In this document: in pieces, positions 3,624-18,986 of the stretch | Layout of the letters: the number at the start of each line of letters is the position of its first letter | How positions within the stretch are numbered: the stretch's first letter is position 1 | Source of the DNA: Treponema sp. | GTDB taxonomy: Bacteria; Spirochaetota; Spirochaetia; Treponematales; Breznakiellaceae | NCBI GenBank assembly: GCA_031254385.1 | Contig: JAIRUO010000008.1 | Span: 1-18,986, forward strand | Direction: 5' to 3' | DNA length: 18,986 nt | Position numbers and translations under genes: made by a program | The notes under the pieces: generated by a model | Databases searched by the model: none | What the model saw: the letters and a program-made list of their open reading frames with translations, nothing else | What the model was told of the DNA's origin: nothing

Positions 3624-4205
3624 ATGAAAATACACCGTCTGTTGCCGGTATCACGCGCAAACGGCCCCGGCCCCCGGTTTGCAGTATGGGTTCAGGGCTG
3701 TTCCCGCAGCTGCCCCGAATGTTTTAACCCACTGACCCATGACCTTCATGGAGGGTATGAGCTTAGCGTCTCAGAAATAATCAGTCAGATACCTATTGGC
3801 GAAGTCAACGGCATCACGGTATCCGGGGGGGAACCCTTTGAACAGCCGGATGATCTTGCGGCGCTGCTTGAGGAAACAAGCCAAATGGGGCTTAACAGCC
3901 TGGTTTATACCGGGTTTACCTATGAAGAATTGAAAAGCCAGAATGTCTGCAAGGTAGAAAAATGCCTTTCGCTAATCCATATACTTATAGACGGGGCATA
4001 TAAAAAAGAAATACCGCCAAAAATGCCCCTTACAGGTTCAGGAAACCAGCGGGTACTGCAGCTATGCCATGGGACAATAGCAAAAATCTATACGAAAAAC
4101 GATTTAGAAACAGACGGATTCTTTGACGGGGAGCTAATCATCGACCAGACCGGCGCTGTGACGGCAACGGGGACTATTAACAGCTATTTTTTACAAAATT
4201 TGTAG
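3624..4205 (+). CDS. NrdG-like radical SAM protein, 193 aa
   Basis: A short radical SAM protein of the anaerobic-activase (NrdG-like) type. Cys26, Cys30 and Cys33 in GCSRSCPEC form the CX3CX2C site for the [4Fe-4S] cluster that cleaves S-adenosylmethionine. VSGGEPFEQ (66-74) is the SAM-binding GGE motif. The length suits minimal activating enzymes with no added C-terminal cluster domain. Known NrdG proteins make a glycyl radical on class III ribonucleotide reductase, but no nrdD or glycyl-radical partner is visible nearby. ATG 3624 follows AAGGGGG. The gene sits 7 bases after the AAA+ gene and 36 before gp25, so it is probably co-transcribed. A role in modifying an eCIS or AAA+ partner is inference. 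Confidence 0.85.
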   Translation: MKIHRLLPVSRANGPGPRFAVWVQGCSRSCPECFNPLTHDLHGGYELSVSEIISQIPIGEVNGITVSGGEPFEQPDDLAALLEETSQMGLNSLVYTGFTYEELKSQNVCKVEKCLSLIHILIDGAYKKEIPPKMPLTGSGNQRVLQLCHGTIAKIYTKNDLETDGFFDGELIIDQTGAVTATGTINSYFLQNL

Positions 4206-8185: not shown

Positions 8186-8836
8186 TTATAGTGGTTGCTG
8201 ACCGGTCGTTTCGTCACTTTTTAAGTTTATGTGGTGATCCTTTTGACAATATAAACGAAGCAGTTCATCTCTGAATACATCAGCTTCCCAATCCTGCTTC
8301 TCTTTTATGGCACGAGAGCCGTTCAGAGAATAAATTGAATTGAATTCATCAGTATGAAGCACTATATGCCCGAGCTCATGCGCCATTGTTTCTCTGAGCC
8401 TTAAAACAGGCTCTTTCTGCAATTGACCTACTTCATCCATTATGCCATTAAGGTTTTTTTTGGGCAGGGTAATTACCAGTTGCTTGCCATCAACATTTAT
8501 TACCCTGCCTCCGCCTTCGTCACGCATTGACGTAGAATACTCAATCAGAATAGTATACTTTCTTCTTCTGAGCATTCTTTTAAGCATTTGCAGATTACCC
8601 ATTAGCTCATCAATCCGATCTTTGTCTCCTGCCTTAGCCGCTGCTCGCAAATCAGCGTTGACTTTTTGTATTTCCTCCTGCTTTGCTTCTGCGCGGTCAT
8701 CAACCAGTAATTTATCGGCGCCAAATATGGCATGCGTTAGATGGTAGTCAAATGAGATATCATAAACTTTTCGGGCTCTGGCTATTATTTCCGCCTTTCT
8801 TTTTTCTCTCGCCGGATCGGCCTTGTTTATCGCCAT
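8186..8836 (-). CDS. ImmA/IrrE-type zinc metallopeptidase
   Basis: A 216-aa protein with a gluzincin-like catalytic site: HELGH (153-157) in MAHELGHIVLH, with the third zinc ligand probably Glu184 in WEADVFRDELL, the ImmA/IrrE arrangement. Family members cut repressors or other regulators inside the cell. Unlike many, it has no visible helix-turn-helix domain; residues 10-95 are charged and helical (EIQKVNADLRAAAKAGDKDR). It interrupts the eCIS plus-strand genes on the opposite strand. Its ATG overlaps the end of the broken gene 8827-9219 by ten bases and has only a weak ribosome site, which suggests translation coupled to that gene. It could control eCIS expression or be an unrelated insert. 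Confidence 0.8.
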   Translation of the reverse strand: MAINKADPAREKRKAEIIARARKVYDISFDYHLTHAIFGADKLLVDDRAEAKQEEIQKVNADLRAAAKAGDKDRIDELMGNLQMLKRMLRRRKYTILIEYSTSMRDEGGGRVINVDGKQLVITLPKKNLNGIMDEVGQLQKEPVLRLRETMAHELGHIVLHTDEFNSIYSLNGSRAIKEKQDWEADVFRDELLRLYCQKDHHINLKSDETTGQQPL

Positions 8837-9727: not shown

Positions 9728-10939
9728 ATGCCAAACTATCAAACGCCTGGCGTTTATGTTGAAGAAGTTGAAAGCGGTTCAAAGCCCATTGAAGCAGGGG
9801 CTACCAATATCGTGGGTTTCCTTGGGGTTGCCGAAAAAGGCCCGGTAAACGAAGCAGTATTAGTAACAAACTGGACTCAATATACAAAAATATTCGGCGG
9901 CATGCACACTGATGGCTGGTTGGGGCATGGCGTTTATCAGTTTTTTCAAAACGGCGGGACAAAAGCATATATCAACAACTTGAAAGGGCTCCCTCAAAAG
10001 CCAGAAAAGAGTGAGAAAGCGGGAAAGGACGAAAAAGCGGATGACGCTTCAAAAGCCCCTGTAAAGATTGCAAATCCCAAGGAAATTGCCAAGCTTATTA
10101 TTGGCGCTGATGAAGGCGTAGGTAAAAAATCGGGGCTTTATCTATTTGATACGGTTCCGGAAATTGCATTGGTCTGCGCTCCCGGGGTAACTGACCCTGC
10201 GGCTCAAGACGCTATTCTAACCCACTGCGAAAAAAACAGGTTTCGTTTTGCAATACTTGATTCCCCGGAAGATTTGGAAAAGGGTATTGATACGATGCCC
10301 ATGCCGCGGGATTCAATCATGGGCGCATACTACTTCCCTTGGATACAAATGTATGACACGGCGGTGGATCAAAATGTGTATGCTCCGCCGTCTGGAGGTA
10401 TGGCTGGCGTGTACAGCAGGGTTGACTCTACCCGAGGTGTACATAAAGCGCCGGCCAACGAAATTTTTAGAACTGCTTTAGGATTAAAGTACGGCCTGAC
10501 AGACGCGGAGCAGGAACTCTTAAACCCTAAGGGCATAAATTGTATACGCGAGTTTGCGGGGCGGGGCATCCGTGTTTGGGGTGCCCGGACTATCAGTTCC
10601 AATCCCGAGTGGCGGTATATAAATGTCCGGCGCTTGTTTTGCATGGTAGAACAAGCCATACAGAACGGGACCAACTGGGTTGTTTTTGAGCCTAACACAA
10701 GGGATTTGTGGAAAAAAATAACCAGAAATATTACATCTTTTTTGCTGAATATATGGCGTGGCGGCGCTTTGTTTGGCGATACGCCGGAAGAAGCTTTTTA
10801 TGTACGGTGCGATGATGAACTAAACCCACCGGAGAGTATTGATGCCGGGTATGTAGTGGTAGAATTGGGAATTGCCCCGGCAAAACCAGCGGAATTCGTA
10901 GTCTTTAGGGTCTCTCAAAAGACCCTGGGCGAAGAATAA
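9728..10939 (+). CDS. Contractile tail sheath protein, 403 aa
   Basis: A phage tail sheath family protein; sheath rings surround the tube and contract to drive it into a target. The N-terminal TPGVYVEEVESGSKPIEA (6-23) and VGFLGVAEKGP are the family signature. The middle holds the conserved sheath domain (IALVCAPGV; FRFAILDSP). The C-terminal half has the usual GIRVWGARTIS, WRYINVRRL and NWVVFEPN motifs, and the last residues form the arm linking neighbouring subunits. The length suits a minimal eCIS sheath. A Lys/Glu/Asp/Ala-rich linker at about 90-113 (PEKSEKAGKDEKADD) is probably a flexible surface loop. It has its own strong promoter and ribosome site, and the tube gene follows after 33 bases. 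Confidence 0.96.
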   Translation: MPNYQTPGVYVEEVESGSKPIEAGATNIVGFLGVAEKGPVNEAVLVTNWTQYTKIFGGMHTDGWLGHGVYQFFQNGGTKAYINNLKGLPQKPEKSEKAGKDEKADDASKAPVKIANPKEIAKLIIGADEGVGKKSGLYLFDTVPEIALVCAPGVTDPAAQDAILTHCEKNRFRFAILDSPEDLEKGIDTMPMPRDSIMGAYYFPWIQMYDTAVDQNVYAPPSGGMAGVYSRVDSTRGVHKAPANEIFRTALGLKYGLTDAEQELLNPKGINCIREFAGRGIRVWGARTISSNPEWRYINVRRLFCMVEQAIQNGTNWVVFEPNTRDLWKKITRNITSFLLNIWRGGALFGDTPEEAFYVRCDDELNPPESIDAGYVVVELGIAPAKPAEFVVFRVSQKTLGEE

Positions 10940-10972: not shown

Positions 10973-11401
10973 ATGGCAGATTATACCCCGACTACTAAAA
11001 CGTATTTTAAGGTTGAAGTTGACGGCGTCGATTTTGGAAACTTTGTATCGGTTTCCGGTCTTGGCGCTAACGCCGAGGTTTCCGATGACATGGGCGGTAT
11101 GGATAAAAACCCCCGTAAAGTTGTTGGAAAAGTAAAATACGAAACAATAAAATTGGTTCGTAATGCCGATCCCCGCGACAAAGTACTCAAAGAGTGGTGG
11201 AAGACTGTTGAGAGGGGCAATCCGGAACAAAAATCTGTATCTATAGTTTTTATGGATCGGTCTGGTGTTACCGAAATCCAGCGCCGGAACTTGTTCAATG
11301 CGGTTCCCTGCGGATGGACTATTTCCGATCTGAGCAGCACCGATAACGGCGTTATTACCGAGACCATCTCCCTGGTTTATGAAAACGCGGAATGGGCATA
11401 A
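10973..11401 (+). CDS. Tail tube protein (T4 gp19-like)
   Basis: A 142-aa inner tube protein of the gp19/Hcp-like fold, which stacks as hexameric rings inside the sheath. The family pattern is clear: FKVEVDGVDFGNFVSVSGL near the N-terminus, then KVKYETIKLVRNADPRDKVLKEWW, and the closing IQRRNLFNAVPCGWTI strand pair. ATG 10973 follows AAAGGAG. Only one tube gene is seen here, whereas several eCIS carry two or three tube paralogues; others could lie outside the window. Confidence 0.92.
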   Translation: MADYTPTTKTYFKVEVDGVDFGNFVSVSGLGANAEVSDDMGGMDKNPRKVVGKVKYETIKLVRNADPRDKVLKEWWKTVERGNPEQKSVSIVFMDRSGVTEIQRRNLFNAVPCGWTISDLSSTDNGVITETISLVYENAEWA

Positions 11402-13187: not shown

Positions 13188-13598
13188 ATGTCTCATATAG
13201 CAAAAATTGATACAAAAATAAAGGACTTAGCTTATCTAAAGAAGGCCCTAAAAACCCTAAATATCCAATTTACCGAAGCCAACGAAGGAGAGACTTTAAC
13301 CTTAAAGGGATATAGCAAGAAAGAAGCTATCACCGGCTGCATAATGGAAATAAAGACCGGAAGTACCTACAGCATTGGCATCTGCAGAAAAGAAAAAGGG
13401 TATGAGGTAGTTGCCGACTGGTGGGCTATTGAAACGTTTACCGGGCAGAAGCAGGAAGATATCATGAATAAGATAACCAGACAATATGCGTATGAAACAA
13501 TAATGGATAAGGTTAAGGGAATGGGTTATAGCGTCGTTCAGGAAGAACAGGATACTAAAGAGAACCTGCGCATTACCGTTAGACGGTGGGATGGGTAA
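13188..13598 (+). CDS. DUF1257 / Ycf35-like protein, 136 aa
   Basis: The start MSHIAKIDTKIKDLAYLKKAL and the general layout match the DUF1257 family, which includes the plastid and cyanobacterial ORF Ycf35. The middle (GYEVVADWWAIE) and the end (YAYETIMDKVKGMGYSVVQEE, then LRITVRRW) also fit. The biochemical role of the family is unknown. ATG 13188 follows AAAGGAG. It is interesting beside the Ycf46-like ATPase at 2084-3616, since Ycf35 and Ycf46 are both conserved plastid ORFs and, from memory, are sometimes neighbours in bacteria. The small DUF2997 partner I would then expect is not seen. The assignment rests on pattern recognition only. Confidence 0.72.
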   Translation: MSHIAKIDTKIKDLAYLKKALKTLNIQFTEANEGETLTLKGYSKKEAITGCIMEIKTGSTYSIGICRKEKGYEVVADWWAIETFTGQKQEDIMNKITRQYAYETIMDKVKGMGYSVVQEEQDTKENLRITVRRWDG

Positions 13599-14301
13599 TA
13601 CAGTGAGTTTTTACGGTAGATCAAGCCGCATCCTGGTTGAACAGCTTGTGCAGAAGAGAGCAATAAAAGATTGCCAAATTGCAGAATGTGATCTGTCTGG
13701 CCTATCCGTCATTGATGCCCAATGGGATCATGCTGATATTCGGGATCTGCATGCCAACGATAGCGTTATTCAAAATTCAAAACTGGAAAATAGCACCTTT
13801 TTCCGTTCCAGTTTTATGAGAGCTTCTTTTATAAAGACTGTTTTGGACACGATGGTTTTTGATGGCTTAACGTTAATCAAAAGCCGATGGGACAATACGT
13901 GGGTAAATAATACTGTCATGAAAAACCTTTGCTTGCAGCGTTCAGGCTTTTTCGGGAGCCGCTTTATTTCATCATCACTGCTGGATTTTGAAGCGCTGGA
14001 TACAAGGATAGATAATTGTATATTTGCCCACAGTATGTTCAGCATAAATTATGGAAGCGGAATGAACGGATTTAGCGGTGCTGATTTTACCAATAGCATT
14101 TTTTACCATTGTCGGTTTGAGGGGTATCCGCTTCGGGGAGCCAGGTTGGCTTCCTGTGTTTTTATTCATTGCTCAGGCGAAATCAGCGATGATATAGAAT
14201 GTACAAAAGTGGCAGGTATAGGCTTGAGGGGTAACGCGCAGCATAAACCCCTTCAAAGAATGAATGAAGCCCGCCGTTTGATCGAACGGTATGTATCGTA
14301 G
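13591..14301 (+). CDS. Pentapeptide-repeat protein, 236 aa
   Basis: Residues about 25-195 show a five-residue periodicity with hydrophobic or aromatic centre residues and small neighbours (DLSGLSVIDA; STFFRSSFMRASF; GADFTNSIFYHCRF), typical of a right-handed quadrilateral beta-helix. Many members shield DNA gyrase or serve as binding scaffolds; others have no known role. Short flanking regions are non-repetitive, and the C-terminus (QRMNEARRLIERYV) is helical. ATG 13591 overlaps the DUF1257 stop by eight bases, with GGTGGG upstream; GTG 13603 is a possible alternative. The tight coupling suggests a joint role with DUF1257. Confidence 0.78.
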   Translation: MGNTVSFYGRSSRILVEQLVQKRAIKDCQIAECDLSGLSVIDAQWDHADIRDLHANDSVIQNSKLENSTFFRSSFMRASFIKTVLDTMVFDGLTLIKSRWDNTWVNNTVMKNLCLQRSGFFGSRFISSSLLDFEALDTRIDNCIFAHSMFSINYGSGMNGFSGADFTNSIFYHCRFEGYPLRGARLASCVFIHCSGEISDDIECTKVAGIGLRGNAQHKPLQRMNEARRLIERYVS

Positions 14302-14315
14302 AAACAAAGGGAAGT

Positions 14316-14684
14316 ATGAAAGCTGAAGAAATCAGGTCCGCCCTGGAAGAAACCTCCCCAGAAACATTGGCCGATGCTCTGGCAATTGTCTTTGCCGAAG
14401 GCAAAGCCCCTTCTCAGGCGGTGGCAGGTATGAATATGCCCGAACTGGCAAATTTTGCCCAGGCGGTCATATATTTAAAAAAAAATTTTGATTTTGAAGA
14501 GCTGGAGTATTTTGACACCGAAGCGGATTTGGTTTATGTCAATGCAGGGGATCGCCGTGTCCTTTTGACTGCAGGTGGAAACAATTCACGGCAGGAAAAA
14601 GCGGCCTTTGAGGCTAAAACTTCCGGGCATGACGATGCAGGTTCCGGCTCAAATGGCGGTCGGTTCTCGCATCTTGAGATATAA
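14316..14684 (+). CDS. Hypothetical protein, 122 aa
   Basis: Not recognised. The N-terminal half is helical and acidic (MKAEEIRSALEETSPETLADAL), followed by PELANFAQAVIYLKKNFDFEELEYF, a small strand region VYVNAGDRRVLLTAG and a flexible Ser/Gly-rich tail. No signal peptide. AAAGGGAAG precedes ATG 14316. It lies 14 bases after the pentapeptide gene and 11 before the tail assembly gene, so it is probably part of the same transcript. Its position next to the assembly genes suggests a small structural or chaperone role, which is inference. Confidence 0.6.
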   Translation: MKAEEIRSALEETSPETLADALAIVFAEGKAPSQAVAGMNMPELANFAQAVIYLKKNFDFEELEYFDTEADLVYVNAGDRRVLLTAGGNNSRQEKAAFEAKTSGHDDAGSGSNGGRFSHLEI

Positions 14685-14695
14685 GGGGCTTAAAT

Positions 14696-15067
14696 ATGAA
14701 TATAAGAACGACATTCAGGTTTACATTGCCCAAAGGGAATGGGGTTAAGGCAGAGCCTGGCCGCAAAGTGAACGGCACCATGAGGCTGATCCAGGTAAAG
14801 GATTTGGTTTCCATTGAGCGGGATGCCCAGGTACAATTGGGAAGCGGCGCTTTTTATGTTGTCCTCTTAAGCAAAATCATTGTCGAGCTTGGCCTTGAAA
14901 CGATGATAACGCGCAGAACCATCGAACAGCTAAGCCCTGCAGATTTTGCCTTTTTGATAGATTTTATGCATGAGATCAACCATCAGGTAATAAAGCAGAT
15001 CCCGTTGACCTGCGGGTCATGCGGTCATACTTATTGGGGAACGTTCGCGCAACTGGGGGAAGCATAA
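14696..15067 (+). CDS. Mu gp41-like tail assembly protein, 123 aa
   Basis: The pattern FRFTLPKGN, a spacer, GTMRLIQVKDLVSIERDAQVQ, then FYVVLLSKIIVELG and SPADFAFLIDFMHEINHQ matches the phage tail assembly (Mu gp41-like) proteins found in eCIS loci, which are thought to assist tube or tape-measure folding. A CGSCG pair near the end (about 107-111) may bind metal. The family is small, cytoplasmic and absent from the mature particle in phages. The ribosome site is weak (AAGGGGC upstream of 14696). Its last 49 bases overlap the DUF6760-like ORF in the -1 frame, and a G5 run lies ten bases before its stop. Confidence 0.72.
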   Translation: MNIRTTFRFTLPKGNGVKAEPGRKVNGTMRLIQVKDLVSIERDAQVQLGSGAFYVVLLSKIIVELGLETMITRRTIEQLSPADFAFLIDFMHEINHQVIKQIPLTCGSCGHTYWGTFAQLGEA

Positions 15068-15285
15068 GCCGCCTTCTGAACGAGGTCTACCGGGAGGCGG
15101 CTGATTTGGCATATTATTTTCACTGGCAGAGAGGTGATATCTTAGGGCTGACAATGCAGGAGCGGAAGATTTGGCTTTCGCAAATCAACCGGATTCACGC
15201 AGGGCAAAAACGGGTGCGGGGTCTTGAAATGGTAGAACAGGTAGAATACCTAATGAATTTGCGAAACTCAGAAGGAGGCACATAA
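15019..15285 (+). CDS. DUF6760-like protein (start uncertain)
   Basis: The sequence SRLLNEVYREAADLAYYFHW, then DILGLTMQERKIWLSQI, has the LxxEVxxxAYxFHW core of DUF6760 proteins, which accompany tail assembly genes in eCIS. The protein's own start is unclear. ATG 15019 has no ribosome site and would add 15 unlikely residues (MRSYLLGNVRATGG). TTG 15034 is no better. ATA 15064 has GGGGGA close by but is a very rare start. The frame is open from 14974 and is -1 relative to the upstream gene, so production as a frameshift extension is the main alternative. It ends one base into the next start codon. Confidence 0.65.
   Translation: MRSYLLGNVRATGGSISRLLNEVYREAADLAYYFHWQRGDILGLTMQERKIWLSQINRIHAGQKRVRGLEMVEQVEYLMNLRNSEGGT
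15055..15067 (+). promoter_or_regulatory. Candidate -1 frameshift site (G5 run)
   Basis: The tail assembly gene reads CTG GGG GAA GCA TAA here. Slippage back by one base on the G run would give GGG GGA AGC ATA AGC and continue directly into GSISRLLNEVY of the DUF6760-like frame, bypassing the stop. Phage tail assembly chaperones commonly use a programmed frameshift to make a long fusion. The run is not a textbook X XXY YYZ heptamer, because GAA re-pairs poorly with GGA, so the call is tentative. Confidence 0.4.
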
Positions 15286-18200
15286 TGGTACGGGAGCTGT
15301 CATGGTACTTGGAAAGCGGGCGGTTTAGCAGTCTTGTAGAAGAGCTTGAAGGCTCTCTGAAGAAATATGAGGCCGCAAAGAAGGAAGGATGCAAAGAGAA
15401 TGCCCTGAGCCCATTGCGCGAGAATACCCGCGCCCTTTTTGAGGATCAGTGCGTCCGTTCCGGGCTGAGGGAAGATAAAGCCTCTTTTGTCAATATAGAT
15501 GCTGAATTTTTTAACGGAAATGCCCTGGATGAAACTGCGGTCAATACCTTTATGAAGAATATAATAAAAGGCCACTGTTATCAGAAGGTGCTGTGGACGT
15601 ATATGGGGACCACCGGTTCATTCAGCCCAGTATCCAAGGCGGAGATGTCAAACCAGGGATTGCGTTATGACGACTACCTGCCTATTGAGTATAAGAAAAA
15701 CCGTTCTGCAAAGAAGCCGCTGGAAGACACCTTGGGAAAGGGCACTGAACTCTTTTATATGTACGGCAATGGAACTGTCGGCAAGGAATACAATCCCGAA
15801 AAGGCCAGGCTTGCGTTTAATAGGCTGGAAGACAAAAGTGGCATAGATTGGAAAACCGGTTATGATCCCAACGGAAGTATAAAGAAAGACGGCTGGCATG
15901 GGGCATACAACCATAACGGCATCTGGGCAAAAGTAGAGGACGCAAAAAGAGATGCAAATCCGGCGAACCAGCCCGGAATGGTTCCCATAGAATTGATTAG
16001 GCATGGGGATGTCGCCATACTGCACGATCCAGGGATGCTGTTGCTTTCTTCTCCTCTATTGGTGTACTTCACGGAGAGCGGAGAACCGTACGGGAATCTT
16101 GAAATGGACAGAGAAGGGACGGTTAAGGAGATACGGGAAACGCTGGAAAAAATGGGGGTAAAGAGGATAGGCGTAATAGGGGGCATAGCTCCTGATAATC
16201 CCGAAATACTTTCCTCGTACCGGGAGATACTGAAGGATCTTGCGGCACCCGATCTTGCCGCAGTGGATAGAAAGGCGGTAAGGGCGATAAAAGAAGGCTA
16301 CGGGCAGGCGGCGGCTGAAAAAGTTTCGGAAGAAATGGGGGTAAGGCTGGAAAAGAAACTGAAGATAGCCGGGAAATACGGCGTTGATACCGCAATGATC
16401 CTGGAGTCAATCGTGCATGGGAGCTTGATGGTTCCCTTGTCACCAAGAAACAAAGCCGATGGCCTTGCTTTGGGACTTAGCGAAGTAGAAGTTGATGCGG
16501 TGTGCGCCTTGCCACTGCGCCCTGAGGATGAAGCTGCATATGACACTGTATTAAGCAACCTGTATGCAGCCTGGCCCTATTTTCAGGGCGGCATAAGCAG
16601 GGTCGAAGCCGCCGGCATGGTGTATGATTATTTTTTGGGGAAGGATATAACTCCAGTAATAGCTGCGGAAACCAGTCTTGGGGCAATAATCCGCGGAGAG
16701 GGTGAAACAGCGCAGGAGGGGGTAAGGACTTACGCAAGCGGCATACCGGGGGAATTCTCCGAGCCTCCTGCTGTTGATTTTTATAATGAAGCGGCAAAGG
16801 GGAAGTTCTTAAAGAGCCTTGAACGGAAACGGGCATTGCCCAAGGGAGGCGCTGCCGCGGCATCGGCGGCCCTAAAAGCTATGCCCGAGGGAGCTGCGGA
16901 AAAGCGTGCCGAGCTAAATCGCGGATTGGCCCGAGCACTTGGTCAATACAAGGAGATTTCGATGAGCACGGGGATTCCCCTTGCGGAGCTGGTAGAGGCG
17001 GTAAAGGCCGAAGCTGGGTTTGGCGGAGGCAAAGAGCAGGCTGTTTTTGGACGGAAAGTATACTACGAAATCCCGACAGGAGCACTGATAGCAGAAGCAA
17101 AAAAAGAAAACCGCCAGAAGAAGGAAGTTCGGCTGGACAACGAAACGGACCATGGCGCAGAAAATACGGTAATAATTGGCGGAGTGCAAGGCCCCGCATT
17201 GGACGAAGTGCTTCTGACCCGCGAAAAGCTTATAGCAGACTACGCCTTTAGCGAAGAAGAAGCAGGAAGGGCTCAGCCGTTCCTGCACGGCATACGTTTT
17301 TATTCACAGGGTGCCGAAGGGTTAGACCTTGCCGGCAAGAACGCAATTACGGCCATATTGGGTGACGCGGTAAGGCAGGACGCGGGAAAAACCGCAGCGG
17401 GCTTGCGGCGGGGCATACTTGGGGCTCTTGATGGGCATACGGAAGTGTCCTATAACCTTGCGTCTGACGAAGGGATGCAGGCGTATTATGAGAGCGGACG
17501 CGGAAGGGCAAATAAGGTTGGCAGGAAAGATCTGGAAGCGGTGATGCAGGAAGCGCGGAAGAGTACTATTTCTATACCTTTGCCGCCCTCGTTGGTTTCC
17601 ATGGTGTCTCCAAAGTATAGAGCCGAAGGGAATGTGCCTCTGCAGCGGAATGTTTCTAAGGGAAAGCCTGGAAAGATATATCCTTATCCTGTAAACATTG
17701 CAGGGGAACCCCATATACCCGAAGCCTCGTTCCAGAGCCACAATGGCGGCAATACACTGATGGAAGCGCCATTGCTGGAGGGGCAGCGCATAAAAACCGG
17801 GACAGGCGGTATTCCAGATTTTCCTTTCTCTGCAATGCCGGAGCAAAATATTACAGAGAACGTAAACCCTTTGATGCCGGAATTCGCGTTACATTCCCAA
17901 AAGAACCAGCCCGGTAACGCGGAGACGGAACGGCTGAGGAAGATAGAAGCAAGCTACGAACGGGACATGGAAGCGCCATTGCTGGAAAGTCAGTATATAA
18001 AAACCGGGGCAGGTGCCATTCCAGATTTCCCTTTCTCTGCAATGACGGAGCAAAATATTACAGAGAACGTAAACCCTTCGGTGCCGGAATTCGCGTTGCA
18101 TTCTCAAAAGAATCAGCCCGGCAACGCCGAGCTGGAACGGTTAAGGAAGATAGAAGCGAACTATGAGCGGGACAAGGCCATGCTTGCCCGTCAAAAACAG

Positions 18201-18335
18201 CCCGCGCTTGCCCGGAGCGAAAGCCATGACGTGGGGCATGCGGAGGGGGAAGGGGAGACTATCGACTCGCCAGAAAAAACAGCCAATGCGATCTATAAAG
18301 ACATAGCCTGGATTTTACAGAGGGACAATCAATGA
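15285..18335 (+). CDS. Large protein of unknown function, 1016 aa
   Basis: Not recognised. ATG 15285 follows GGAGG and overlaps the previous stop by one base. Residues 1-150 are charged and helical; about 150-330 form a compact mixed region (YMYGNGTVGKEYNPEKA; IELIRHGDVAILHDPG); about 330-780 are long, Ala/Glu/Lys-rich and mainly helical; 780-825 are Pro-rich; 826-963 are a tandem duplication; the tail is charged. No signal peptide or membrane helix. In phages a long helical gene right after the assembly chaperones is the tape measure, which would suit this position. In eCIS the same place often holds effector-like proteins near DUF4157, an equally good option. It is coupled by ATGA to the DUF4157 gene. 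Confidence 0.75.
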   Translation: MVRELSWYLESGRFSSLVEELEGSLKKYEAAKKEGCKENALSPLRENTRALFEDQCVRSGLREDKASFVNIDAEFFNGNALDETAVNTFMKNIIKGHCYQKVLWTYMGTTGSFSPVSKAEMSNQGLRYDDYLPIEYKKNRSAKKPLEDTLGKGTELFYMYGNGTVGKEYNPEKARLAFNRLEDKSGIDWKTGYDPNGSIKKDGWHGAYNHNGIWAKVEDAKRDANPANQPGMVPIELIRHGDVAILHDPGMLLLSSPLLVYFTESGEPYGNLEMDREGTVKEIRETLEKMGVKRIGVIGGIAPDNPEILSSYREILKDLAAPDLAAVDRKAVRAIKEGYGQAAAEKVSEEMGVRLEKKLKIAGKYGVDTAMILESIVHGSLMVPLSPRNKADGLALGLSEVEVDAVCALPLRPEDEAAYDTVLSNLYAAWPYFQGGISRVEAAGMVYDYFLGKDITPVIAAETSLGAIIRGEGETAQEGVRTYASGIPGEFSEPPAVDFYNEAAKGKFLKSLERKRALPKGGAAAASAALKAMPEGAAEKRAELNRGLARALGQYKEISMSTGIPLAELVEAVKAEAGFGGGKEQAVFGRKVYYEIPTGALIAEAKKENRQKKEVRLDNETDHGAENTVIIGGVQGPALDEVLLTREKLIADYAFSEEEAGRAQPFLHGIRFYSQGAEGLDLAGKNAITAILGDAVRQDAGKTAAGLRRGILGALDGHTEVSYNLASDEGMQAYYESGRGRANKVGRKDLEAVMQEARKSTISIPLPPSLVSMVSPKYRAEGNVPLQRNVSKGKPGKIYPYPVNIAGEPHIPEASFQSHNGGNTLMEAPLLEGQRIKTGTGGIPDFPFSAMPEQNITENVNPLMPEFALHSQKNQPGNAETERLRKIEASYERDMEAPLLESQYIKTGAGAIPDFPFSAMTEQNITENVNPSVPEFALHSQKNQPGNAELERLRKIEANYERDKAMLARQKQPALARSESHDVGHAEGEGETIDSPEKTANAIYKDIAWILQRDNQ
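17760..18173 (+). repeat. Tandem duplication, 2 x 207 bp (69 aa)
   Basis: Two in-frame copies, 17760-17966 and 17967-18173 (residues 826-894 and 895-963), with no bases between them. Each begins MEAPLLE and ends KIEA-YERD, and shares IPDFPFSAM, EQNITENVNP and PEFALHSQKNQPGNAE. By eye 60 of 69 residues match and about 26 of 207 bases differ, with no length change. The duplication is therefore not brand new and both copies have been kept open. Confidence 0.95.
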
Positions 18336-18986
18336 GCAAAAAAACACTTGAAAATAACGAAGTCTCTTTGCTCATACATACTCTTGATACAATTATTGCT
18401 TTAGGGATTGGAGATTCCAAAAAACGCGTAATGCTCAAAAGGGATGGGTCGCAGCCGATGACAGACGCATCGCGTGATTCATTGTTAAGGACAGATGAAA
18501 ACGATTGGGTTTTTCCCTTGGAGACCATTGAGCTGCAAAAGTTTAAGACAAAACATGATATTGATGTACCAGAAGCAATCATACATACCGGCCCTTATGC
18601 GGACGAATTGGCCAGGTCAATAAATGCGGTAGCTGTTACTCTAGGCAGCGATGTCTTTTTTCGGAACGGATCATACAATACCGCAACCGAAAGCGGGAGG
18701 GCTGTATTGGCCCATGAATTGACGCATATTGGACAATACGAAGACCAATCTATAGCGAACGGTACAAGCATTGAGAAGCTGGAAAGCGAAGCGGAATCTG
18801 AAGAACAAAAAGAATACGGCATAAGAAACCCTGTAATATCGGTAATGGCAGGAAACCGCATATATAGGATAAGGAAATCAGAGATGAAGGAAGTTGCGGA
18901 ACTGAGCGCAAGGAAGCTCTCCCAATGGCTTGAAGAGCAGAAGCTGGCGATGGAACCGGATGAATATTTGGCACTGCTGAACAGGG
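18332..18986 (+). CDS. DUF4157 eCIS protein, 3' end cut by window
   Basis: ATG 18332 overlaps the previous stop (ATGA). The visible 218 residues contain the DUF4157 signature: DVFFRNGSYN, then SGRAVLAHELTHIGQ with a zinc-type HELTH (128-132). DUF4157 is a putative metallopeptidase domain strongly linked to eCIS loci, often at the start of effectors. The glutamates after it (IEKLESEAESEEQ) could supply the third ligand. Residues 1-75, before the domain, are unlike the rest and may be a packaging or targeting segment; this is inference. Later residues form charged helices. The reading frame is still open at the edge, so the C-terminal domain, which often carries the toxic activity, is unknown. 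Confidence 0.85.
   Translation, partial: MSKKTLENNEVSLLIHTLDTIIALGIGDSKKRVMLKRDGSQPMTDASRDSLLRTDENDWVFPLETIELQKFKTKHDIDVPEAIIHTGPYADELARSINAVAVTLGSDVFFRNGSYNTATESGRAVLAHELTHIGQYEDQSIANGTSIEKLESEAESEEQKEYGIRNPVISVMAGNRIYRIRKSEMKEVAELSARKLSQWLEEQKLAMEPDEYLALLNR

Follow-up and report, generated by a model that had tools for sequence, protein, structure and literature searches.

Sequence evidence for a probable -1 programmed ribosomal frameshift signal joining two tail chaperone-like frames in eCIS loci

RESULTS

An open frame overlaps the end of a tail chaperone-like gene in an eCIS cluster

How is a reading frame translated when it overlaps the end of the gene before it and has no evident start codon of its own? 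The question is raised by the window, a stretch of 18,986 nucleotides from a Treponema sp. contig (JAIRUO010000008.1). Genes for an AAA ATPase, a gp25 baseplate protein, a sheath, a gp19-like tube, and a DUF4157 core protein identify an eCIS cluster in the window. A tail assembly chaperone-like gene of this cluster, here called E, is overlapped at its 3' end by a second frame, E', in the -1 register. A preliminary description of this DNA had proposed that the two are joined by a -1 programmed frameshift, and G-run conservation and missing starts in relatives support that interpretation. Judged from sequence, the eCIS E/E' junction is very probably a -1 programmed ribosomal frameshift signal, from which both E and a 196-amino-acid (aa) E-E' protein would be made. 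The genes concerned are the following.

9728 to 10939, + strand: contractile sheath gene (PF04984/PF17482)
10973 to 11401, + strand: inner tube gene, gp19-like (PF06841, E value 6e-24)
14696 to 15067, + strand: gene E, tail assembly chaperone-like, 123 aa, with CxxC near the end and the C terminus LGEA
15058 to 15285, + strand: coding part of E' (DUF6760/P2-E'-like) after a -1 slip
15285 to 18335, + strand: gene after E', 1016 aa, with a start ATG overlapping the E' stop
18332 to 18985, + strand: gene for an eCIS core domain (DUF4157) protein, running off the window (PF13699, E value 1.8e-19)

The sheath and tube genes lie upstream of E, with five genes between the tube gene and E. In 7 of the 10 plasmid loci with E annotated, E directly follows the sheath and tube genes (L038, L040, L046, L048, L052, L055, and L057); the three plasmid loci without this order are L042, L045, and L050. 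In the window, the genes that part E from the tube gene include those for a DUF1257 protein and then a pentapeptide-repeat protein (13188 to 14301, + strand); P2 and most of the annotated plasmid loci have no such separation. Elsewhere in the locus, a 193-aa 4Fe-4S/radical-SAM activase-like protein, an unusual cargo or maturation enzyme, is encoded between the AAA ATPase and gp25 (3624 to 4205, + strand; Fer4_12, E value 2e-28). On the opposite strand, a 216-aa protein with an HELGH motif (8186 to 8836, - strand) gives a marginal match to IrrE/Peptidase_M78 that is under the cutoff (E value 2.7e-4).

The gene that follows E' had been taken for a tape measure gene, which our results do not bear out. 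It has no Pfam match, and it is present in 8 of the 12 spirochete loci examined (the window included, L053 not counted) and absent from the other 4; its homologs have complete lengths of 936 to 1568 aa. Passages of a Streptomyces study likewise describe no typical tape measure in the clusters of that study (PMC10066040).

E' is related to P2 E'

The protein search recovered 107 E proteins, the window's own included, and 104 of them end in LGE[A/V/E]. None is a natural in-frame E-E' fusion: the longest of the 107 has at most 138 aa, and the search admits proteins of up to 215 aa. The model phrog_508, "tail assembly chaperone," is matched by 12 of 18 aligned E relatives, the window's own E not being among those that match, and the best viral-model matches of E are named baseplate or baseplate hub more often than chaperone. 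The structure model of E resembles, weakly in its PDB matches, the HK97 chaperone and YqbN, the latter presumably a phage-type tail chaperone. Comparison of profiles with hhalign gave no link between E and P2 gpE, and E as a profile-detectable homolog of P2 gpE was rejected on this ground. A search for viral relatives of the spirochete E or the Nostoc E found none.

No stop codon interrupts the -1 frame of E between a TGA at 14971 to 14973 and a TAA at 15283 to 15285, and the frame is thus open from 14974, as the preliminary description had read it. Downstream of the slip point, it encodes GGSISRLLNEVYREAADLAYYFHW, which is modeled as three helices with a mean pLDDT of 89 and has no match below an E value of 1 in the PDB. 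Its earlier assignment to DUF6760 (PF20546) stands in part. The whole open frame matches this family with an E value of 3e-5, and its 24.4 bits fall just below the Pfam gathering cutoff of 27, which relatives exceed in 6 of 11 genomes; the window's E' is a close relative of DUF6760 and, by Pfam's rule, not a member. All 20 aligned E' frames match DUF6760 at an E value of ≤0.05. The match of the window's open frame to Phage_P2_GpE is weak (E value 0.027), and 3 of the 20 E' frames match that family, the best at 3.4e-4. In profile comparison, E' aligned to P2 E' with an hhalign E value of 1.2e-5 and a probability of 81, and phrog_10636 was common to both. Phage records for the Nostoc E' were looked for and not found.

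The protein search returned 18 E' proteins, again with the window's own, versus 107 for E. Missed genes explain a part only of this gap; the short E' query is also less sensitive.

A GGGGGAA slippery site is conserved in run and phase

The 3' end of E reads CAA CTG GGG GAA GCA TAA in the window, where the following elements lie.

15055 to 15061, + strand: slippery site GGGGGAA, read xxG GGG GAA in the 0 frame, a listed heptamer of phage tail chaperone genes
15065 to 15067, + strand: 0-frame stop TAA of E, overlapping an ATA of the -1 frame

Five G residues occupy 15055 to 15059, so that the first G is, as described before, ten bases ahead of the stop codon of E; the slippery site lies three codons before that stop. 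A slip of one base on GGG would be followed by GGA AGC ATA AGC, giving the junction LG/GSISR and then the core NEVYREAADLAYYFHW. This junction and its lead into the conserved core had been predicted correctly. The product would comprise 121 codons of E plus 75, or 196 aa. The heptamer is the slippery sequence of annotated SEA-PHAGES frameshifts, nearly all in tail chaperone genes, in the part of the PRFect paper that lists them (PMC10885494), and a passage on corynephage phi16 proposes it as that phage's slip site (PMC5506516). The pattern GGGGGARNNNTRR is not rare within the window (1 match, 0.44 expected), and the case therefore rests on relatives.

We compared 51 distinct loci, namely, the window, 23 spirochete loci, 18 plasmid loci, and 9 loci from viral contigs. 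Dropped before counting were L017 to L027 and L053, which are the same places as other loci; L066 and L068, the same or nearly the same as L065 and L067; and L035 and L036, weak matches with internal stops. The translated plasmid search gave 35 records, of which 19 were read; the remainder were 15 from S. clavuligerus and a second S. cattleyicolor record, and for the Kitasatospora record the best of 3 places was read. The 18 distinct plasmid loci include Streptomyces and its kin, Rhodococcus, Embleya, Paenibacillus, Nostoc, Brasilonema, Pseudanabaena, Kovacikia, Paraburkholderia, Rhizobium, and Haloferax.

Of the 51 loci, 48 carry five or more consecutive G residues in one and the same codon phase, which answers the check on run and frame in relatives that had been suggested with the original proposal. 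By length, the run is G5 in 43 loci, G6 in 4, G7 in 1, and G4 in 1, and it is missing from 2. Run and phase span Spirochaetota, Actinomycetota, Bacillota, Cyanobacteriota, Pseudomonadota, and viral contigs. Although the run lies at different distances from the stop (10, 7, 4, or 31 bases), its codon phase is constant. In every one of the 49 loci with any run, the Gly codon at the slip is GGG, compared with 100 of 444 for the remaining upstream Gly codons of these genes.

In the window and 16 spirochete loci (from Treponema and other spirochetes), the junction takes the form [C/T]TG GGG GAA NNN stop with E' in the -1 frame; GCCGCC stands right behind the stop, and GGCGGC answers it 22 bases on. 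Seven further spirochete loci, from genome searches, keep the G run with a stem that is altered in several: GCTACC/GGTGGC in L028, GCTGTC/GACAGC in L032, GCCGCC/GGTGGC in L031 and L033, and a different, longer stem in L029. Among plasmid loci, 17 of 18 have the run, Haloferax being the exception, and a run of G5 to G7 is present in seven of the 9 distinct viral contigs (11 in all).

The proposal had named separate genes with a good start as the case that would speak against it, and only Haloferax L042 and the viral pair L067/L068 show this arrangement clearly. In Haloferax larsenii L042 (947 to 1743), the ATG of E' overlaps the stop and there is no G run, so that coupled genes seem to stand in place of the frameshift. 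The haloarchaeal E also has a longer, acidic C-terminal tail. The viral pair, counted once, has separate genes, an ATG start for E', and no G run. Viral locus L064 has G4 only, directly before the stop.

Two loci look damaged near or in E. In L053 (T. succinifaciens pTRESU01, 114 to 1271), E is immediately preceded by an ISAs1-family transposase gene and has its N terminus replaced, yet the slip site and the stem-loop are present; this eCIS may be broken. In L051 (a Kovacikia minuta plasmid, near 1460 to 1516), the E frame is interrupted shortly ahead of the junction, by assembly error or in a decayed gene, and the slip site, the stop (TAG at 1514), and the stem-loop are present in the same phase.

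A stem-loop begins at the stop codon of E

A stem-loop overlooked in the preliminary description lies behind the slippery site.

15067 to 15102, + strand: stem-loop of 12 pairs, -21.7 kcal/mol

It begins at the last base of the stop codon, 5 nucleotides (nt) past the heptamer, with a 5' arm at 15067 to 15078, a 3' arm at 15091 to 15102, and a conserved core that pairs 15068 to 15073 with 15096 to 15101. Against shuffled sequences, z-scores were -1.7 to -3.8 for six stretches from five loci. The stem-loop could have been a by-product of the E' peptide, and we compared it with synonymous variants in which that peptide was kept. In 38 of 49 loci, 297 or more of the 300 variants were less stable than the actual stem-loop, and in 41 of 49 loci, 285 or more were. 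Eight of the 49 failed this comparison (over 15 of 300), namely, L039, L047, L048, L049, L055, L056, L057, and L060, six of which are Actinomycetota. An origin as a by-product was thus rejected for the 38 loci and not for these 8. An intrinsic terminator was rejected as well, with three T in the 8 bases after the stem; the terminator scan admits loops of 3 to 8 only, and the 12-base loop found here could not be listed by it. Rfam contains no known RNA family matching 14600 to 15500 up to an E value of 1.

Covariation was computed for two sets of loci. In the 23-row ungapped set (the window and 22 spirochete loci, without L029), all rows retain the six outer pairs, three of which show a compensatory change, and the structure beats 500 shuffles on all five covariation measures; one slid control reached 9 doubly changed cells, compared with 6 for the structure. 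Across all 49 loci, 86.2% of cells pair, and the 38 doubly changed cells were reached by 0 of 500 shuffles and compare with at most 15 when the structure was slid. Two of the five measures are not above shuffles in this larger set, changed pairs being reached by 192 of 500 and pair types by 500 of 500, and RNAalifold gave no consensus for the 49.

A covariance model, R1, was built from 23 junctions (the window and 22 spirochete loci). On 28 held-out eCIS loci, R1 found the junction in 14 at an E value of ≤0.001 and placed four more correctly with E values of 0.02 to 0.72; ten were missed. It gave nine hits in 392 spirochete genomes, one per genome and all at DUF6760 places. Since all nine are among the source places of the model, they demonstrate specificity and not discovery. 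The genome scan, with its stricter filters, missed the held-out L029 place. R1 had no match in P2.

Alternative routes to E'

E' might instead be translated from a start of its own. The only ATG, GTG, or TTG codons of the -1 frame before the slip site in the window are the following ATG and a TTG at 15034.

15019 to 15021, + strand: only ATG upstream in the -1 frame, without a ribosome site and not favored as a start

Neither codon is preceded by any of the six Shine-Dalgarno pieces that we scanned for, in agreement with the earlier statement that a credible start with a ribosome site is lacking. An independent start at ATG 15019, inside E, would give an 88-aa open reading frame (ORF), and gene finders start several of the 18 E' proteins at about this place. 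However, an ATG occurs at the equivalent place in only 5 of 49 loci, and in 29 of 49 the frame opens merely 3 to 30 nt before the slip site, where no such start is possible; 24 of the 49 loci with a run have no ATG, GTG, or TTG at all in the -1 frame before the E' core. The stretch from the ATG to GGSISR is variable, and the gene finder of the window's own record picked a still later start, inside the core (P0109). The recurrence of NTG at this position is explained as a by-product, because ATG 15019 overlaps the TGC codon of a conserved E cysteine. Lacking a ribosome site and a same-place ATG in most loci, this start was rejected, and we regard it as exceedingly improbable. Alternatively, E' could be a separate protein made by translational coupling, with ribosomes restarting at the codon that overlaps the stop and GGGGG acting like a Shine-Dalgarno sequence. 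GGGGG could pair with the anti-Shine-Dalgarno sequence with one G:U pair, public annotation starts E' at the overlap codon in Streptomyces records, and coupling could act in the 10 of 47 loci where that codon is GTG or ATG. Yet in these 47 loci (L051 and L047 are left out, the stop of L047 lying further on), the overlap codon is ATA in 24, GTG in 8, GTA in 7, CTG in 3, CTA in 2, ATG in 2, and TTA in 1. It is thus ATA, GTA, CTA, or TTA in 34 and CTG, GTG, or ATG in 13, so that no start is conserved; ATA as a conserved unusual start was rejected because GTA, CTA, and TTA take its place in relatives. A Shine-Dalgarno piece precedes an upstream GTG in L030 and L047 only.

The annotated E' starts are also inconsistent (GTG, CTG, ATA, ATT, and TTG). 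Public annotation begins E' at ATA in L040 (1528) and at ATT in L050 (1513), a sign of pipelines forcing a start where none exists. Other features of the junction weigh against coupling too: GGGGG is kept in 48 of 51 loci although pairing would be better with GGAGG, initiation would be impeded by a strong stem-loop at the start, and the distance from run to stop shifts while the codon phase is fixed, with a heptamer that is that of phage chaperone genes. Coupling consequently retains a small probability, larger than that of the internal ATG. Between the two we place transcriptional slippage, a quite unlikely reading in which RNA polymerase would add a G within the G5 run and bring E' into frame in a fraction of messages. 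The run that it needs is there, and 4 of the 49 loci have G6 and 1 has G7. Five G residues are, however, short for polymerase slippage, the run is G5 in 43 of 49 loci, and the conserved stem-loop, spaced as a ribosomal signal would be, is better explained by ribosomal slippage.

DISCUSSION

Relation to phage tail chaperone frameshifts

On the sequence comparisons made here, a -1 programmed frameshift explains the eCIS signal far better than any rival. The signal is homologous in part to the P2 and lambda tail chaperone frameshifts and would work like them. The junction has what is seen in phage chaperone pairs: a second ORF in -1 overlap near the 3' end, a slippery sequence, and an E' homologous to P2 E'. 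P2, too, has E and E' after sheath and tube genes; its E' is translated through a -1 frameshift that is annotated close to the 3' end of E and is related in sequence to the E' of eCIS. Against this, P2 slips at T6G and eCIS at GGGGGA[A/G], a CxxC lies close to the end of eCIS E, which has no detectable similarity to P2 gpE, R1 does not match P2, the window has five genes between tube and E, and an eCIS is not a virus.

Lambda gpG/gpGT and the actinobacteriophages resemble the arrangement proposed here for eCIS in that a low-level -1 frameshift yields a short and an extended chaperone, according to a published account (PMC5009743). The same account states that the tape measure and the tube subunit are the binding partners of the two lambda products, neither of which is found in the virion. 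With actinobacteriophages and corynephages, eCIS shares the GGGGGAA heptamer, as passages of two papers indicate (PMC10885494 and PMC5506516). The differences are that those are phage genes, whereas the loci described here are chromosomal or plasmid eCIS loci, and that the eCIS signal comes with a covarying stem-loop in many loci.

DUF6760/PF20546 is treated by its curators as a distinct family and in annotation as a gene by itself, and a search of the open-access literature found no paper using the DUF6760 name. Nor did a search of the titles and abstract beginnings of open-access papers find a report of frameshifting in eCIS. A word search found no "frameshift" in the main text of PMC10020575, PMC10066040, PMC10598620, PMC11126660, PMC13277306, PMC11297309, or PMC12210884; in portions of PMC13222765 and PMC8718954, it occurs only in a reference title and a phage context. 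What is new is that the probable frameshift is placed in eCIS, that it is spread over phyla, and that the stem-loop is kept in most loci outside Actinomycetota.

A model for the production of E and E-E'

If the junction works as a -1 frameshift signal, most ribosomes would read E (123 aa) through to its stop. A minority, with GGG in the P site and GAA in the A site, would move back by one base at GGGGGAA, with the stem-loop that starts at the stop codon promoting the slip. After the slip, the P-site tRNA would re-pair perfectly with GGG. As a counterpoint, re-pairing in the A site at GGGGGAA is imperfect; a passage of the PRFect paper notes that the A-site tRNA re-pairs with GGA only via a G:U pair (PMC10885494). 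The slipped ribosomes would continue in the -1 frame and add the E' helical domain, giving the E-E' protein. We infer the slip and its frequency from the signal, whereas the role in assembly is suggested by the analogous lambda gpG/gpGT and P2 E/E+E' pairs: the assembly of the inner tube may be set by the ratio of many E to few E-E'. An extended core or tape protein would be bound by E, alone or as part of E-E', and tube subunits would be recruited by the E' part.

A wider reading, to which we give slightly less than an even chance, is that the -1 frameshift was inherited from a tail ancestor shared with P2-like phages and is the general ratio control of one large, DUF6760-bearing branch of eCIS in at least five phyla. 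Host-domesticated machines would then still need two chaperone forms in fixed proportion, the ratio may be tuned by RNA folding in the branch with strong stems, and haloarchaea would have switched to two separately started genes.

As protein delivery machines, eCIS are the subject of both research and engineering. Current annotation gives E and E' as a pair of genes, with starts that are forced, or it omits E'. If the frameshift is needed, clusters rebuilt with separate genes or with a recoded G run would have the wrong chaperone ratio. If the frameshift reading is true, cellular injection machines in different phyla have retained the tail chaperone frameshift of phages, and it would offer a direct way to test how eCIS tubes are started and measured.
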